A stretch of 64,000 nt of DNA, from the NCBI GenBank assembly GCA_019637335.1, contig JAHBVV010000018.1, positions 1 to 64,000 on the forward strand, read 5' to 3'. Shown in pieces: positions 46,500 to 53,219 of the stretch. A program made the position numbers and the translations under genes. Below the pieces are notes generated by a model, which was given only the letters and a program-made list of their open reading frames with translations, ran no database searches and was not told the DNA's origin. Origin of the DNA: Candidatus Hydrogenedentota bacterium. Lineage in GTDB: Bacteria > Hydrogenedentota > Hydrogenedentia > Hydrogenedentales > JAEUWI01. How positions within the stretch are numbered: position 1 is the stretch's first letter; each line of letters starts with the position of its first letter.

Positions 46500-48773
46500 A
46501 TGACCACGCTTCCCCTGCTTTTGACCCTCGCGCAGCTTGCCACGGCGGGCGCGCTGCAACTGGATGAATCGCCCGCGGGCCCACAGGACTGGGGCTTCCG
46601 CCCGGCGCACGAATCCACGGTGCGGACGACGCCGCCGGCCCTGGTGTGGCGTCCGGTGGAGGGCGCGGCCTATTACGCCGTCGAAATCGCGCGGGACGAG
46701 GCATTCACGGCGCAGAAGCGTTTGTATCCGGCGGTGCGCTGGTCTTCGTTTGCGCCCGACATGGCGCTGGAGCCGGGGGTTTGGTTCTGGCGTTACGCCG
46801 CGGCGGACGCGGACGGCGCGCAGAGCGCCTGGAGCCGGACGCGGCGCTTTGAGGTGGCGGCGGACGCCCGGCCCTACCCGAAACCGGCTATCGGGGAGCT
46901 GGCGGGGCGTATTCCGGCGTCGCACCCGAAGCTTTTTCTGCGGCCGGAGGAGATCCCCGCGTTTCAGGAGGCCGCGCAGGGCCGCCAGGCCGCGCAGTGG
47001 GCGGACCTGGTGAAGAGTGCGGACGGGCTGCTGAAGTCCCCGCCGGACACGACCGAGCCGCCGAAGTATCCCGAGGGTACGGTGCACAAGAGCGACGCCT
47101 GGAAAAAGATCTGGTGGGGCAACAGGCGGCGCGCCATCGCGGTGGCGGATGGGGCGGCGACGCTGGCCTTTGTGTACCGGCTCACGGGCGAGGAGAAGTA
47201 TGGCGACGCGGCGAAGGATCTCATGATGGCCTTTGCGGCGTGGGACCCGCGCGGTGCGACGAGCTACAAGTACAACGACGAGGCGGCGATGCCGCTGCTG
47301 TACTTCCCGGCGCGCGCGTATACGTGGGCGCATGATCGCTTCAGCCCGGCGGAGCGCAAGAAGATCGTGGAGGTCATGCGGGTTCGCGCGGCGGAGTGCT
47401 TTAACCACCTGAACGGGCGTCAGCACCTCTGGCGGCCCTACGCGAGCCACTCCAACCGCGCGTGGCACTTCCTCGGCGAGGTGGCGATCGCGTTCCACGG
47501 TGAGATTCCCGAGGCGGAGACCTGGCTGGACTACGCGATGACGATCTTCTACACATGCTACCCGGTGTGGGGCGGCGAGGATGGCGGCTGGCACGAGGGA
47601 CTCGCGTACTGGTCGAGCTATATGGGCCGGTTCATGTACTGGGTGTTCGCCTCGCAGGCGGCCTTCGGCATCGACCCCTTCGAGAAGCCGTTTTTCGCGT
47701 CCACGGGCTACTACGCGATGTATTCGCTGCCGCCGGGCACGAAGGAGGGGGCGTGGGGCGACCAGGCGCAGGGCGCCTCCTCCAGGAGCATTGCCAGCCT
47801 GATGCGCACCTTCGCGGCGGGCGCGGGTAACCCGCACTGGAAGTGGTACGCGGAGACGCAGGGGGCCGGCGCGCCGGGCGGCTACATGGGCTTCATCCAG
47901 TCCTACCGGGGCGGTGACATCGCGGCGGCGGCGCCGGCCGATCTGCCCTCGTCGCGCGCTTTCCCGGCGGCGGGCCTGGCCGTGCTGAATTCGGACCTGA
48001 TGGACGGCGAGAACAACGTCCAGATCCAGCTGAAGAGCAGCCCCTTCGGCCGCCAGAGCCACGGCTACAACGCGAACAACGCCTTCCTGCTGCACCTGGG
48101 CGGGGAGCGCGTTTTCCGGAAGAGCGGGAAGCGCGACGTCCACGGAAGCCCGCACCACACGAAGTGGATGTGGGAGACGAAGTCGGACAACGCGATCCTC
48201 GTGAACGGGAAGGGCCAGCCGCCGCATTCCGCCGCCGCGCGCGGACATATTGCGCATTTCCAGACCTCGAAGACCCTCGATGTCGTTGTGGGCGAGGCCG
48301 GCGCTTCCTACGAATCGCTCGACCGCTGGACGCGCCGGATCTTCTTCCTGAAGCCGCACGCCGCCGTGATCCACGACGTGCTGGAGGCGCGGGAGCCGTC
48401 GGACTACCAGTGGCTCCTGCACGCCACGGGATCGTTCACGATCGACGAGGGCGGCGTGTTCTGGGAAGGCGAACAGGGCAGCGTCGACGTGGAATTCATC
48501 CACCCGCCGAAGCTCGCCATTTCCCAGACGAAGGAATACGACACCCCGCCGCATGAGTGGGCCAATTTCGACCTCGACGAGGTGCACCTGACCGCCGCGA
48601 CCACCAAAAAGGCCGCGCGCCAGGAGTTCATCACGCTGATGACCTTCGACGACGCCCCGGTGGAGTTCAAGCACGAGCGCAAGCAGGACCAGACGACACT
48701 CGCCATCGCCCTGCCCGACCGTATCGTCGCCCTCCAACTGAGCCCGGATCGCTTCGAGGTGCGCGAGGAGTAG
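46500..48773 (+). CDS. Heparinase II/III-like polysaccharide lyase (DUF4962 type), exported
   Basis: The 757-residue protein has a signal peptide (~1-18). An N-terminal Ig/FN3-like part of DUF4962 (~20-120: PPALVWRPVEGAAYYAVEIARDEAF) is followed by an alpha/alpha toroid (~125-480) with WRPYASHSNRAWHFLGEVAIAFHGE and GGEDGGWHEGLAYWSSY. The C-terminal heparinase II/III beta-sheet domain (~500-757) contains SHGYNANNAFLLHLGGERVFRKSGKRD and GSPHHTKWMWETKSDNAILVNGKGQ. In this superfamily Tyr/His residues in the toroid and a metal-binding His in the beta-domain act in beta-elimination of uronate polymers; the substrate here is unknown. AGAAGG lies before the ATG. The last 557 bases are duplicated at 52663. 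Confidence 0.85.
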   Translation: MTTLPLLLTLAQLATAGALQLDESPAGPQDWGFRPAHESTVRTTPPALVWRPVEGAAYYAVEIARDEAFTAQKRLYPAVRWSSFAPDMALEPGVWFWRYAAADADGAQSAWSRTRRFEVAADARPYPKPAIGELAGRIPASHPKLFLRPEEIPAFQEAAQGRQAAQWADLVKSADGLLKSPPDTTEPPKYPEGTVHKSDAWKKIWWGNRRRAIAVADGAATLAFVYRLTGEEKYGDAAKDLMMAFAAWDPRGATSYKYNDEAAMPLLYFPARAYTWAHDRFSPAERKKIVEVMRVRAAECFNHLNGRQHLWRPYASHSNRAWHFLGEVAIAFHGEIPEAETWLDYAMTIFYTCYPVWGGEDGGWHEGLAYWSSYMGRFMYWVFASQAAFGIDPFEKPFFASTGYYAMYSLPPGTKEGAWGDQAQGASSRSIASLMRTFAAGAGNPHWKWYAETQGAGAPGGYMGFIQSYRGGDIAAAAPADLPSSRAFPAAGLAVLNSDLMDGENNVQIQLKSSPFGRQSHGYNANNAFLLHLGGERVFRKSGKRDVHGSPHHTKWMWETKSDNAILVNGKGQPPHSAAARGHIAHFQTSKTLDVVVGEAGASYESLDRWTRRIFFLKPHAAVIHDVLEAREPSDYQWLLHATGSFTIDEGGVFWEGEQGSVDVEFIHPPKLAISQTKEYDTPPHEWANFDLDEVHLTAATTKKAARQEFITLMTFDDAPVEFKHERKQDQTTLAIALPDRIVALQLSPDRFEVREE

Positions 48774-48779
48774 GCGGAG
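48223..48779 (+). repeat. 557-bp direct repeat, left copy (3' end of the lyase gene)
   Basis: Bases 48223-48779 align without gaps to 52663-53219, with 7 mismatches by direct reading (about 98.7% identity). It spans from CGCATTCC through the stop codon to TAGGCGGAG. It bounds the lower-G+C island on the left. Confidence 0.97.
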
Positions 48780-48842: not shown

Positions 48843-50393
48843 TCACGGATGGTATAAAACCTTAACTGGAACTGACCTCTCGTCGTCTGTCTTGAACAAC
48901 AATCCCCCACTTCCTCGCTCGCTTAACGGTACCGTGGGTTTGTAAGTCACTTTGTACTTTTTGGCCTTGGAGTCGCCTGCCAAGATTTCCTCAATATATA
49001 GCCCTTCGAGCCCGAATGATTCTATTGACGTTACCTCGACTTCTCCACCTGATCGTCGTCGTATACTCGTTTCTGCAACCAACTTGCTTGATCCTAACAA
49101 TAATACTGCGGGATTTGCCTGAATATCTCTAACTATCTCCCCATTTATTCCCACTCTTATGGGTTGCTCCCCCGCATTCTTGCTTGTCATGACTTCTAGT
49201 ATTGCGTCTAAATGACCCTCGACAGATTCCGACTCGACGGTAGCTGTCAAATCTATGACCCAATCCCTCTTCGTTGCCATTGGCAGGCCTGTTCGCGTCG
49301 GTTCATTCCTTCCAAAACGCACTTTTATTGTGACTGCTTCCACGGGCACCTCTGAATTCTTTGTCCCGACAGTTCGAACATCAATGATTTGAAAGGATTC
49401 ATCTGCTGGCGCAAATACCGCAAGATGCCTGGAGATAGTCTGGCCAATGGACATGGGTCCGAAGTTAATCTCTGTCGGATTCGTGATTTGGGGATTGGAA
49501 ACATGGCCGCTTATGCGCAAATATGAACTGGGACAATCCAAATCGTTTGACGTCACATAAATTGAAGTGAAAAAGTCTCCACGATCATTGCTGAGATCTA
49601 GTACGGCTCGAAGTTGGGTCGTTTCACCAGGCTTTACAACCTTGCTGTCTATGCCAGCAGACGTGCATGAACATCCCACCTTTCCTAGCTCAAGGGTCAG
49701 ACACTCGTTGCCAAGATTGCTAGCATTAAATGCGACTTCCAGTGACTTGCTGGGTTTCACAACTCCAAAGTCGACCGACGCAGTCTCCCAACTCAAACGC
49801 GGACCAATTCTTGAGTATTCAATCGCTGGACGCTTCAAGAGCAGAGCCTCGCCGTTCCACATTCGGGATAACTCATCCTGCGCAAGCAGGCGGGCGGTGT
49901 CTTCGGGATCGTAAACGTATACCTTACTCGGAATTACATCACTGACCTCCCTAGGGTCACAGGCTACGAAGTGATTTCCGTTCACCCAAAGCACTGCAGT
50001 TCCCTTGAATCGTACCAGCTCTTGCCATGTTGTTTCTCGCAACTCAGCATTCGCACCGAATTGTTCTGCTCTTGACTTCAATTCAGCAAAGGAATTCCCC
50101 TTGTCGCTTATTGTCATCAATGAAGCAATTTGGCGGAGATCCACTGGATAACCTATACGGCTCAGCGCGACCATAAGTGAACGAGGCCCGCAGAGTTTTT
50201 CGTGACTGTCCTGCTCTCCAAGTGATTGTGCATCCATTACGTTTTCTAACGGGTGATCGGCAGAACAAGATGCAAGCTGAAATACTACCCAAATAGCGAT
50301 ACAAATCGCACTGTGGGAAAGCACCACTTTAGGCCGATATTTACTACACCCATGTCGCACTTTTATTCCATCTCCGAGTCTGAATCGACTCAT
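48843..50393 (-). CDS. Lipoprotein: C39-like cysteine peptidase fused to DUF1573
   Basis: The 516-residue protein has an N-terminal hydrophobic segment with lipobox LASC (C43). Residues ~60-185 match the papain-like C39 fold: LCGPRSLMVALSRIG with nucleophile C68, VNGNHFVACDP with H141, and YVYDPED with D162. DUF1573 follows (~204-290: FGVVKPSKSLEVAFNASNLGN...GCSCTSAG), then further beta-domains to the end. C39 enzymes cut precursors after double glycine, and a GG-containing Cys-rich protein is encoded in the same cluster. It would act outside the cytoplasm, tethered by lipid. I start at the ATG at 50393, 10 bases after the preceding stop; TTG at 50399 is possible. G+C is clearly lower than in flanking DNA. 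Confidence 0.8.
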   Translation of the reverse strand: MSRFRLGDGIKVRHGCSKYRPKVVLSHSAICIAIWVVFQLASCSADHPLENVMDAQSLGEQDSHEKLCGPRSLMVALSRIGYPVDLRQIASLMTISDKGNSFAELKSRAEQFGANAELRETTWQELVRFKGTAVLWVNGNHFVACDPREVSDVIPSKVYVYDPEDTARLLAQDELSRMWNGEALLLKRPAIEYSRIGPRLSWETASVDFGVVKPSKSLEVAFNASNLGNECLTLELGKVGCSCTSAGIDSKVVKPGETTQLRAVLDLSNDRGDFFTSIYVTSNDLDCPSSYLRISGHVSNPQITNPTEINFGPMSIGQTISRHLAVFAPADESFQIIDVRTVGTKNSEVPVEAVTIKVRFGRNEPTRTGLPMATKRDWVIDLTATVESESVEGHLDAILEVMTSKNAGEQPIRVGINGEIVRDIQANPAVLLLGSSKLVAETSIRRRSGGEVEVTSIESFGLEGLYIEEILAGDSKAKKYKVTYKPTVPLSERGSGGLLFKTDDERSVPVKVLYHP

Positions 50394-50403
50394 CTTCAAA
50401 TGC

Positions 50404-51405
50404 TCAGTTGGCCGCCGAACGTTCCAATTGCAATTCGGGCGTCACATAGTCCGGCATCCGCTCTCCAATCCCGAGTTCCATAACTAGAGGGATTGACGGG
50501 TTTCGGTGGTCGATCAGCGTCGTTTGTCGGGCGTACGGGCCATAGGAATGCTCCAAAGCCTGCCGGAGAAGTTCGGCGTTCTCCGATGGCGCGATCGTCT
50601 CAAACGTTATCGTCACCGACTCACCTTCTTTCATGGAAGGGGTCCGCCAGCGGCCCCATTCCGGAATGAAGCGGCCCTCTGTGACGCGCGCGCCATGGTT
50701 CTCCATGTGCAGGAACGCGATCCCGGCACGTTCATCCTCCGCGCTCTGGTAGAAGGATGCGCTCCTTACCATCCAGTGCTTTTCGGGCTCTATGGTCAAG
50801 CGCCACCATCCGATCTGGGAATCTAACAGCCCCCTTCCGCTCCCACGGACATCGAGCGTTCCTTCGCCGACTTCGGAGACCGACTCTACCGCGTCGATGT
50901 GGGATGCGAACCCCCTGCCCATGGACCATAGCACCCTTTTCACCGGCTCGGAAAATGCCTGGCTGTCCCCGCTCTGAATGGAAACGATTGCCTGCTGTTT
51001 GTCCAGGGGTATGTCGTCTGCTCTCGCTGCGGTACTATTCGGGTCTGCCTTTATTTCCACAATGGTTGCCAGAACTTCCGTTACAAGGGTTGTGGTGCCT
51101 ACATAGGCCATCCATTCCCTGGCATCGCCAACATGCGCGGGGAATTCCCGGGCTCTGCTCACAACCGCCACATACCCATTTCCCGCAGAGAATTGCCAGG
51201 TTCGCTCCAGTTCCGGACTGACTCGTGTTGAAAGTCTTTGATCCGTTCCGGAAACGCTCACGGAACTCGTATAGGCGGAATCAAAGTCGCGAAGTTGCGG
51301 GAGAATGTCACTCGGACGGTGGGGCTCACCTGCGCCGGCCTGTAGAGCGACTCCCGCCAGAATTAAGCCTGTCAATTGAACGTGAAACCTTGTCGAATTG
51401 CGCAT
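50404..51405 (-). CDS. Secreted protein of unknown function in the C39 island
   Basis: The 333-residue protein has a signal peptide (FHVQLTGLILAGVALQAGAGEP) and GGAGG before the ATG at 51405. The mature part looks mixed alpha/beta with no cysteines: WQFSAGNGYVAVVSR near 70, a central GRGLLDSQIGWWRLTIEPEKHWMVRSASFY (two halves, ~195-225), and GESVTITFETIAP. The layout, with repeated short strands and W-rich turns, recalls LolA/LolB-like or outer-membrane sorting-protein folds of planctomycetes, but this is only a resemblance. It is co-transcribed with the C39-DUF1573 gene (10-base gap). No homolog elsewhere in the window. Confidence 0.7.
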   Translation of the reverse strand: MRNSTRFHVQLTGLILAGVALQAGAGEPHRPSDILPQLRDFDSAYTSSVSVSGTDQRLSTRVSPELERTWQFSAGNGYVAVVSRAREFPAHVGDAREWMAYVGTTTLVTEVLATIVEIKADPNSTAARADDIPLDKQQAIVSIQSGDSQAFSEPVKRVLWSMGRGFASHIDAVESVSEVGEGTLDVRGSGRGLLDSQIGWWRLTIEPEKHWMVRSASFYQSAEDERAGIAFLHMENHGARVTEGRFIPEWGRWRTPSMKEGESVTITFETIAPSENAELLRQALEHSYGPYARQTTLIDHRNPSIPLVMELGIGERMPDYVTPELQLERSAAN

Positions 51406-51676
51406 GATTTGTGCCTCCGGATTTCAAACACCAAATCCTCGTTGCCGTTGCCAATTGAAGAGGAGCCTCGTGACAAGATATGGTTCGGTCCAGAACGCTC
51501 CATTGCTCGAGCACTTTCACTTCAAGAGAATTCTTTCTCCGCATCCGCAGGGAATTATGGAGAAACAACGCGGGTCTTTATCGCCGCCACCTTAGAATGG
51601 ACTGCTGAGACCCAGGCGCGTCTCCCCAATAGACCGCATAGATGAGAATGTCGTTGAATTTTGGCGCGCCCCCTCT

Positions 51677-52231
51677 TTAACCGCAGACCACTCTGCCCAG
51701 TTGAGTTTCAACAGTAACATAGCTACCGCCATCGCAGTTCGCTCGTAGACATTTATATTCAATCGCGTAAGCGTTGCACCACAGTGGATCGTTAAAGGAT
51801 ACAACAGCAGGGTCGCATCCAGTAAATGAACCTTCGTACTGAATCTGGTACGTCATTATCTTGGAGGAATCTTGGCGCAAGACGCATGGAACCGGATTGG
51901 TTTGCTCTTCCACGGGACATCTGGCGTAGAGTTCGATGTTTAGGAGGCATTTCGTTGCGTCGCACAGCGTTAATGGATTCATGTTCGCATGATCGCATTC
52001 AGCTTGAACTTTTTCCGGGTGGATGAGTCCGCCAGAGTCGATACACTCCCCGCATCCGGTTTCGCCTCCTCGAAGGCGCTCTAAGTTGCCAACAGCCTTT
52101 TCACTCAATCGGTTTTCCGATGTTGTCAAACCGGTGAATCCTGAAATTGCGATTACAACGAGGGAGATACCATAGCAGAAATGGATTACTATCCGCTTTT
52201 TTGTTCCTCTAGGTATATTTGAGAACTCCAT
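51677..52231 (-). CDS. Signal-anchored Cys-rich protein with double-glycine-like motif (candidate C39 substrate)
   Basis: The 184-residue protein has an N-terminal TM or signal segment (~13-35), then ENRLSEKAVGNLERLRGG with GG at 55-56. Hydrophobic residues at -4 (L53) and -7 (L50) from the glycine pair, and an LS ahead, match double-glycine leaders cut by C39 peptidases, although the LS sits three residues further out than usual. After GG come 12 cysteines, starting GCGEC and ending VVCG, enough for six disulfides. AAAGGT lies before the ATG at 52231. It is the first gene of the minus-strand cluster; 271 bases with no ORF of note separate it from the next. Processing is inferred from motif and neighbourhood. 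Confidence 0.7.
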   Translation of the reverse strand: MEFSNIPRGTKKRIVIHFCYGISLVVIAISGFTGLTTSENRLSEKAVGNLERLRGGETGCGECIDSGGLIHPEKVQAECDHANMNPLTLCDATKCLLNIELYARCPVEEQTNPVPCVLRQDSSKIMTYQIQYEGSFTGCDPAVVSFNDPLWCNAYAIEYKCLRANCDGGSYVTVETQLGRVVCG

Positions 52232-52662
52232 AATTTATACCTTTGAAAGTAGTTAAAGATACACACCACGACAGGTTTACTAATCTACAAGCCAGATGTC
52301 CAAAATACATGGAATCTGAGGCACATCTCCGTTGCTGGGGATTCATCGCTTCAAGAGGTCAAGTTAGTTCGTCTGCTTGGGGTGAGAAGAGGTATTGAAT
52401 TTGCCCGTGTGAGAGCAAGCCGACATAGCCACTCACTTATATCACTGTATAGCGCGAGACTTTGTTTCTCGTGTACACTGTGCTGCCGTCCTTTTGAAAG
52501 GATAACTTAGATCGACCGTATTGTCAAGATAAATATTCGGCGGAGCCTGCGATGAAACCAGGGTGAATTCCCGATCCGGTTTTTCTGGATTTGCCTGGGC
52601 GATACGCGCGATTTGTCCCAAAATGGGATTGGAGGAAACGTGGCGCGGGCTGGAAACTGGGG
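52232..52662. other. AT-richer end of the island, no gene
   Basis: This stretch has the lowest G+C around here. It likely carries the promoter of the Cys-rich protein gene on the minus strand, but no clear -35/-10 pair was found. No integrase, att-like short repeat or tRNA fragment is visible. High-G+C sequence resumes at about 52550. Confidence 0.5.
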
Positions 52663-53219
52663 CGCATTCCGCCGCCGCGCGCGGACATATTGCGCATTTC
52701 CAGACCTCGAAGACCCTCGATGTCGTTGTGGGCGAGGCCGGCGCTTCCTACGAATCGCTCGACCGCTGGACGCGCCGGATCTTCTTCCTGAAGCCGCACG
52801 CCGCCGTGATCCACGACGTGCTGGAGGCGCGGGAGCCGTCGGACTACCAGTGGCTCCTGCACGCCACGGGATCGTTCACGATCGACGAGGGCGGCGTGTT
52901 CTGGGAAGGCGAACAGGGCAGCGTCGACGTGGAATTCATCCACCCGCCGAAGCTCGCCATCTCGCAGACGAAGGAATACGACACGCCGCCGCATGAGTGG
53001 GCCAATTTCGACCTCGACGAGGTGCACCTGACCGCCGCGACCACCAAAAAGGCCGCGCGCCAGGAGTTCATCACGCTGATGACCTTCGACGACGCCCCGG
53101 TGGAGTTCAAGCACGAGCGCAAGAAGGAACAGACGACACTCGCCATCGCCCTGCCCGACCGTATCGTCGCGCTCCAACTGAGCCCGGACCGCTTCGAGGT
53201 GCGCGAGGAGTAGGCGGAG
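52663..53219 (+). pseudogene. 3' fragment of the heparinase-like lyase gene (right direct-repeat copy)
   Basis: This copy encodes the last ~184 residues of the lyase (from HSAAARGHIAHFQ to EVREE) with no N-terminal domain, signal or active-site toroid. A start at 52563 would only prefix unrelated residues, so it is treated as a broken copy. Of 7 substitutions against 48223-48779, five are synonymous and two change Q-D to K-E (KQDQ to KKEQ). The synonymous excess suggests it diverged as part of a working allele before being truncated. Confidence 0.9.

Follow-up and report, generated by a model that had tools for sequence, protein, structure and literature searches.

A recurrent C39-DUF1573 gene set in Candidatus Hydrogenedentota and other phyla, with a predicted role in Sec-dependent double-glycine maturation

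The first 64,000 nucleotides of contig JAHBVV010000018.1 (assembly GCA_019637335.1) of a Candidatus Hydrogenedentota bacterium, hereafter referred to as the window, harbour three consecutive open reading frames (ORFs) on the minus strand, together spanning positions 48843-52231, which may belong to a system for the maturation of exported proteins. In transcriptional order these are the gene of a Cys-rich precursor (51677-52231, 184 amino acids), the gene of a LolA-like secreted protein (50404-51405, 333 amino acids) and a C39-DUF1573 peptidase gene (48843-50399), whose product is 518 amino acids long when read from a TTG codon and 516 when read from an ATG two codons on. The G+C content of the three genes is 47.7%, 57.6% and 47.8%, respectively, against ∼65% in the remaining window, in agreement with the initial annotation of this DNA, which had described a minus-strand cluster of three genes of lower G+C. 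Pfam and NCBIfam searches revealed no domain in either the 184- or the 333-amino-acid protein. Throughout this work ORF starts were taken as predicted and signal peptides were called by a crude hydrophobicity rule.

The 518-amino-acid protein matches Peptidase_C39 (Pfam PF03412; E 1.6e-11, residues 65-190) and DUF1573 (E 5.5e-14, 52.4 bits against a cut-off of 26.1, residues 202-300). The C39 domain (49827-50207, minus strand), identified by the Pfam match and supported by a structural match to 6mpz, carries the putative catalytic Cys (C70, 50190-50192), His (H143, 49971-49973) and third catalytic residue (D164, 49908-49910), all on the minus strand and in TTG numbering; these are the C68, H141 and D162 that had previously been named as the triad of a C39-DUF1573 fusion, and both halves of that fusion stand. 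The DUF1573 domain (Pfam; 49500-49796, minus strand) is followed by more Ig-like sandwiches up to the C terminus, and comparison of the structural model identified the whole remainder behind C39 as DUF1573 with HYDIN/ASH-type Ig domains. A C39-DUF1573 profile, run against PDB sequences, finds its best match in 6mpz, an AMS/PCAT double-glycine protease (E 1.4e-19). The structural model of the window peptidase (mean pLDDT, the per-residue model confidence, 80) superimposes on the same structure, solved with a bound leader peptide, with Z 16.8 and a root mean square deviation of 1.9 Å over 122 residues. All 20 homologues compared retain the catalytic Cys and His; at the third position most have D and some have N or E. 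The domain search found no ABC (ATP-binding cassette) or exporter membrane domains in the protein, which starts with a signal sequence and, judging by the sequence, a lipobox (LAS-C45). Most homologues, however, bear ordinary signal peptides or signal anchors and no lipobox. Hence, the earlier picture of a free, lipid-anchored peptidase holds as far as a free, exported enzyme with no ABC exporter in the set is concerned, while the lipid anchor is a feature of the window and not of the family.

The gene set is not confined to the window. Contig C504 of Candidatus Hydrogenedentota isolate OFTM269 (G065) encodes, in the order seen in the window, a Cys-rich protein bearing LSAMEIAELAQLRGG, a protein homologous to that of 333 amino acids and a C39-DUF1573 protein. 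Three further loci of G065 are variants, with two precursors, with separate C39 and DUF1573 genes and with a leader ending in GA, and the set is also present in another genus (G019). A scan of the genome contigs with the window peptidase as a single query gave no match, and an alignment of two sequences recovered only OFTM269 and a lone Bacteroidetes C39 lipoprotein with no Cys-rich partner; in the plasmid search, no C39-DUF1573 relative extended beyond the C39 domain. The C39-DUF1573 profile, in turn, retrieved genomes of other phyla, that is, mostly draft assemblies sharing with the window only the taxonomic domain: G196/G333, G181, G211/G644/G645, G383 together with 17 more genomes of its phylum, and G340/G432 together with more genomes of the class of G432. 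The DNA around these matches, which were picked for reading regardless of their neighbours, again contained a small gene for a Cys-rich secreted protein and a LolA-like gene. As deduced from the sequences, the set of precursor, LolA-like protein and C39-DUF1573 thus occurs in Hydrogenedentota and five other phyla, that is, in at least six.

The check proposed in the initial annotation, whether Cys-rich GG proteins lie beside C39-DUF1573 fusions, gave a positive answer. A small secreted Cys-rich gene (up to 260 amino acids, 6 or more Cys, signal-bearing, on the same strand and within 6 kb) lies near 27 of 37 C39 loci (26 by the automatic rule, plus L176) and near none of 20 C39-less DUF1573 loci of the same phylum. 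The Fisher P value of 2.5e-8 (3.8e-8 leaving out the window) overstates the independence of the loci, which share descent; stronger evidence comes from finding the set in several phyla. Since the same set with the same kind of site is found in distant genomes, the trio in the window is not a product of chance. No ABC exporter and no immunity gene was seen to recur in the neighbourhoods that were read.

Most of the precursors share one layout: a signal peptide or anchor, a stretch of ∼15-25 residues, a G-G/A/S site and a core with 6-16 Cys. The positions ahead of the site match those of the classical double-glycine leader (L-12, S-11, E-8, M/L-7, L-4, G-2, G/A/S-1), and the signature across neighbouring precursors can be written as LSxxE[ML]xxLxG[GAS] or, more loosely, as [LIV][ST]xx[EDQ][LM]xxxxG[GAS]. 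When a 12-position leader model was applied to 451 Cys-rich ORFs from the collected sequence, scores of at least 12.5 (12.5 to 30) came only from ORFs adjoining a C39 gene, the best ORF outside the clusters reaching 9.6. Loci outside the building of the model still scored high (L129, 15.7; L173, 12.5; L182, 23.2), and some divergent cluster precursors scored at or below 9.6. The GG leader model TIGR04149 matches the leader region very weakly only. Behind the leader, the cores are 44-155 residues long and vary greatly between loci, no Pfam or NCBIfam family was found in them, and 20 of 28 precursors have an even number of core Cys (P 0.018). A search of the relatives with the Cys-rich protein of the window alone recovered only itself, because the precursors are too divergent for pairwise searching.

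The precursor of the window follows this layout. As stated in the initial annotation, it has 12 Cys behind an N-terminal hydrophobic segment and LRGG at residues 53-56. The export segment (residues ∼14-36) is the single N-terminal hydrophobic stretch of the protein; the leader occupies residues 37-56 and the core, with exactly 12 Cys, residues 57-184. The LRGG itself (52064-52075, minus strand) is the predicted C39 cleavage site, with the cut expected after G56. The leader aligns without gaps to LSAMEIAELAQLRGG of the C504 homologue in G065, and the first Gly (G55) and nine Cys never vary in an alignment of the seven nearest members of the precursor family. Ahead of the site, the leaders of this branch are eroded (NVFGG, SVYGA, VAFGA, TLYGA). 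The xLRGG formerly suggested is not the conserved signature: LRGG is restricted to the window and one G065 locus, and what is conserved is the canonical double-glycine leader with GG, GA or GS at its end. The underlying idea of a Sec-exported Cys-rich precursor with a GG-type site just before its core, linked to an exported C39 protein, was in turn borne out across phyla.

Two loci provide a comparison. In G065:C545 (L078, 2431-5310) and G000:C24 (L085, 4587-7609) a DUF1573 gene lies beside a gene for a Cys-rich secreted protein with no C39 gene, and in both Cys-rich proteins the signal peptide leads straight into the Cys core, with no double-glycine leader. These loci are suggestive of a leader that exists for the C39 enzyme, and possibly represent a sister system lacking the second cleavage. 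Another C39 arrangement was met in L151 (G390:C149, 2812-3841), where a small C39 protein adjoins a LSDLEMDELRGN-containing protein in which no signal peptide is visible; this looks like an ordinary cytosolic double-glycine pair and is a useful contrast. In L130 (G334:C4, 5727-12004) a signal-bearing C39 protein lies beside a protein of at least 1875 amino acids with LDENEMKDVVGK near its N terminus; here a leader-like motif apparently sits on an exported protein of very large size.

The 333-amino-acid protein had been described as a secreted protein with no recognised domain. While it indeed matches no Pfam or NCBIfam entry, it is no bystander: its homologues hold the same position in the main loci, and in G340, G106, G717, G747 and G739 the LolA-like region is fused ahead of C39-DUF1573. 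Since the middle gene accompanies the peptidase in this manner, it is a constant part of the set. One homologue, that of L122, exceeds the cut-off of Pfam LolA_like (30.7 versus 30 bits), and the window protein, modelled at low confidence (pLDDT 52), retrieved mostly LolA-superfamily proteins, RseB and LprG at the top of the list (best Z 7.6, with the LolA-superfamily protein NE2245). That the protein serves as a carrier or chaperone for the leader or the product is our guess.

We consider a Sec-dependent, ABC-exporter-independent double-glycine maturation system the most probable explanation of these data, with a probability of roughly 0.75. We infer the following order of events. The Cys-rich protein would be exported by Sec by means of its signal peptide or anchor, leaving a second, bacteriocin-type leader, usually of ∼15-25 residues, on its N terminus outside the cytoplasm. 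The exported C39 peptidase would bind this leader and cut after GG (GA or GS in relatives), releasing a mature protein, presumably disulfide-rich, to the envelope or to the outside. The probable task of the LolA-like partner, which in some genomes is fused to the peptidase, is to carry or present the hydrophobic leader or the product, and that of the DUF1573 Ig domains is to keep peptidase and substrate in contact. The product may perhaps be a cell-surface or secreted protein, glycosylated where a GT-C glycosyltransferase adjoins. PMT glycosyltransferases adjoin the cluster at L223, L127, L226, L229, L124 and L188 and STT3 at L173 and L178, in two phyla; as these enzymes act on exported proteins, the product may be glycosylated in those two phyla. 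The broader claim, that a so far undescribed and widespread secretion-maturation pathway of at least six phyla reads double-glycine leaders outside the cytoplasm, with a Sec-exported precursor and with an exported C39-DUF1573 peptidase and LolA-like partner that process and deliver a large and variable class of disulfide-rich proteins, possibly glycosylated in some lineages, of the envelope or the exterior, is held with less assurance, though we lean towards it.

Other genes were seen beside the cluster in particular phyla. In the phylum of G211 (L123, L148, L150) a gene for a BlaI-like regulator and one for an M56 (BlaR1-type) peptidase lie between the peptidase and precursor genes, and this pair possibly regulates the system. 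In the phylum of G383 (L173, L177, L178, L188, L191, L192) a cytochrome-c554-like protein with N-terminal motifs of the CGCAEGQIGG type recurs beside the cluster, with a Pfam match in L173 and L188.

In the window, the low-G+C cluster sits between two direct repeats of 557 bp on the plus strand, which are identical at 550 of 557 positions (99%) and had escaped the initial annotation. Copy 1 (48223-48779) corresponds to the 3' end of a complete heparinase-like gene (46500-48773) and copy 2 (52663-53219) an isolated duplicate of that end. A sequence of ∼143 bp (52522-52664) ends at the junction with copy 2 and has six diverged relatives elsewhere in the genome, on C2, C3, C11, C16, C24 and C34. 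This arrangement is most simply explained by a recombination event that placed a foreign segment at the 3' end of the heparinase-like gene, and the set of the window was most likely acquired horizontally on a low-G+C insert. A C39-domain tree unites the window, G065 (C504) and G432 with a support of 97/96; G065 belongs to another family of the same order and G432 to another phylum, which fits horizontal spread. Further along the window, a small signal recognition particle RNA gene (Rfam RF00169; 55883-55982, plus strand) is directly followed downstream by a DNA polymerase III gamma/tau-like gene.

Several observations weigh against the proposed maturation system. Cleavage at GG is a prediction from the sequences. 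The leader of the window scores -0.9 in the 12-position model and is indistinguishable from shuffles, and the candidate claim that its GG is significant taken alone was dropped for that reason; this leader appears to be a degenerate member of the family by synteny, by the ungapped match to LSAMEIAELAQLRGG and by the invariant G55 and nine Cys, not by score. The initial annotation had counted GG-less homologues, and C39-DUF1573 proteins devoid of triad residues and of such neighbours, against its own proposal: co-occurrence was seen and the Cys and His are retained throughout, whereas a few precursors depart from GG, some having AG, ATGG or GFGG and one G1037 paralogue only LAG-C. Ten of the 37 C39 loci have no Cys-rich gene, several of them being truncated by contig ends, the loci with no C39 and no leader number only two, and the LolA-like assignment comes from one Pfam match above the cut-off and a low-confidence model. 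It is very improbable, all the same, that three unrelated genes arrived together on a foreign insert and that the GG arose by chance. Such a history would agree with the low G+C, with the flanking duplicate of the heparinase 3' end and with the poor score of the window leader, and is contradicted by the recurrence of the set in at least six phyla, by the canonical leader and by the fusions.

Canonical C39 enzymes have an oxyanion-hole Gln six residues ahead of the catalytic Cys. Such a Gln at Cys-6 is found in none of the 19 homologues with sequence at this position, which is a further point against the system, since catalysis could be weak or lost, and the main reason for keeping the alternative that C39 is a non-catalytic, leader-binding module, as the C39-like domain of HlyB. 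A module of this kind would tether the precursor while the LolA-like and DUF1573 parts aid folding or surface delivery, with no cut being made. An HlyB-type C39-like domain is among the profile matches (3zua, E 1.3e-6), but active double-glycine proteases are matched far more strongly, C39-like domains of the non-catalytic type typically lose the Cys that is invariant here together with the His (the third position being D, N or E), and a cutting enzyme needs small residues such as those at -2 and -1 of the leader. We therefore regard a purely binding role as unlikely and file the peptidase as a C39-like fold that probably acts as C39 enzymes do, while not claiming it to be fully equivalent in catalysis. 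The nature of the product is a separate matter. Bacteriocins, microcins and pheromones typically carry double-glycine leaders, and small Cys-rich cores that differ greatly among loci would suit a bacteriocin-like toxin or signal, in which case the same maturation mechanism would serve an alternative route of bacteriocin export. However, no recurring immunity gene or ABC exporter was seen in the neighbourhoods that were read, and cores of 44-155 residues with PMT or STT3 neighbours in two phyla are no less compatible with a structural or surface protein. The product could act as a toxin or signal, with nothing found that points there in particular, and such a role seems to us doubtful, if less so than a C39 domain that does not cut.

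Double-glycine cleavage is, by the textbook, the work of a C39 domain on the cytosolic face of the membrane that is coupled to an ABC exporter. With such PCAT/AMS proteins (ComA, PCAT1) the present system shares the C39 fold, the Cys/His/Asp residues and substrates with an LSxxE[LM]xxLxGG/GA/GS leader. It differs in that the peptidase is exported as a lipoprotein or by a signal peptide and is not fused to an ABC exporter, in that the substrates have a Sec signal ahead of the leader, and in the DUF1573 and LolA-like partners and the missing oxyanion Gln at Cys-6. The nearest precedent, and a studied exception to ABC-coupled C39, is FapD of the Pseudomonas functional amyloid (Fap) system, a Sec-exported periplasmic C39 protease needed for amyloid secretion, the target of which is unclear, the Fap proteins being devoid of a canonical C39 site (PMC5557850). 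FapD is likewise an exported C39 protease with no ABC transporter that takes part in the secretion of Sec-exported proteins, whereas the candidate substrates described here have canonical double-glycine leaders and Cys-rich cores and are accompanied by LolA-like and DUF1573 partners. No FapF-like barrel or amyloid-repeat substrate was noticed among the neighbouring ORFs, which were not searched with Fap-specific models. The second protein resembles the fold of the LolA/RseB/LprG superfamily (by the L122 Pfam match and the low-confidence window model) and is divergent in sequence, often has a C-terminal membrane anchor and is linked to C39-DUF1573 and not to LolCDE/LolB. With DUF1573/HYDIN-ASH lipoproteins the peptidase has in common the Pfam DUF1573 domain and the HYDIN-type Ig fold, which here is fused behind a C39 peptidase; the 20 C39-less loci that were checked had no Cys-rich partner. 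In the open-licence literature, no paper was found that joins C39 with DUF1573, nor was one found under periplasmic C39 and related terms. The enzyme family and the leader code are known; the location, the coupling to Sec, the partners and the substrates are undescribed as far as this search reached.

If the proposed system operates as outlined, the leader code would have been kept and the processing step moved outside the cytoplasm, after Sec, so that leader recognition would be uncoupled from ABC transport. With the precursors, the predicted cut site and the peptidase identified by name, the idea can be tested directly. The class of periplasmic C39 proteases, of which the studied member, FapD, lacks a known target (PMC5557850), would gain clear substrates, and many DUF1573 and LolA-like genes in poorly cultured phyla would for the first time be placed in a functional context.

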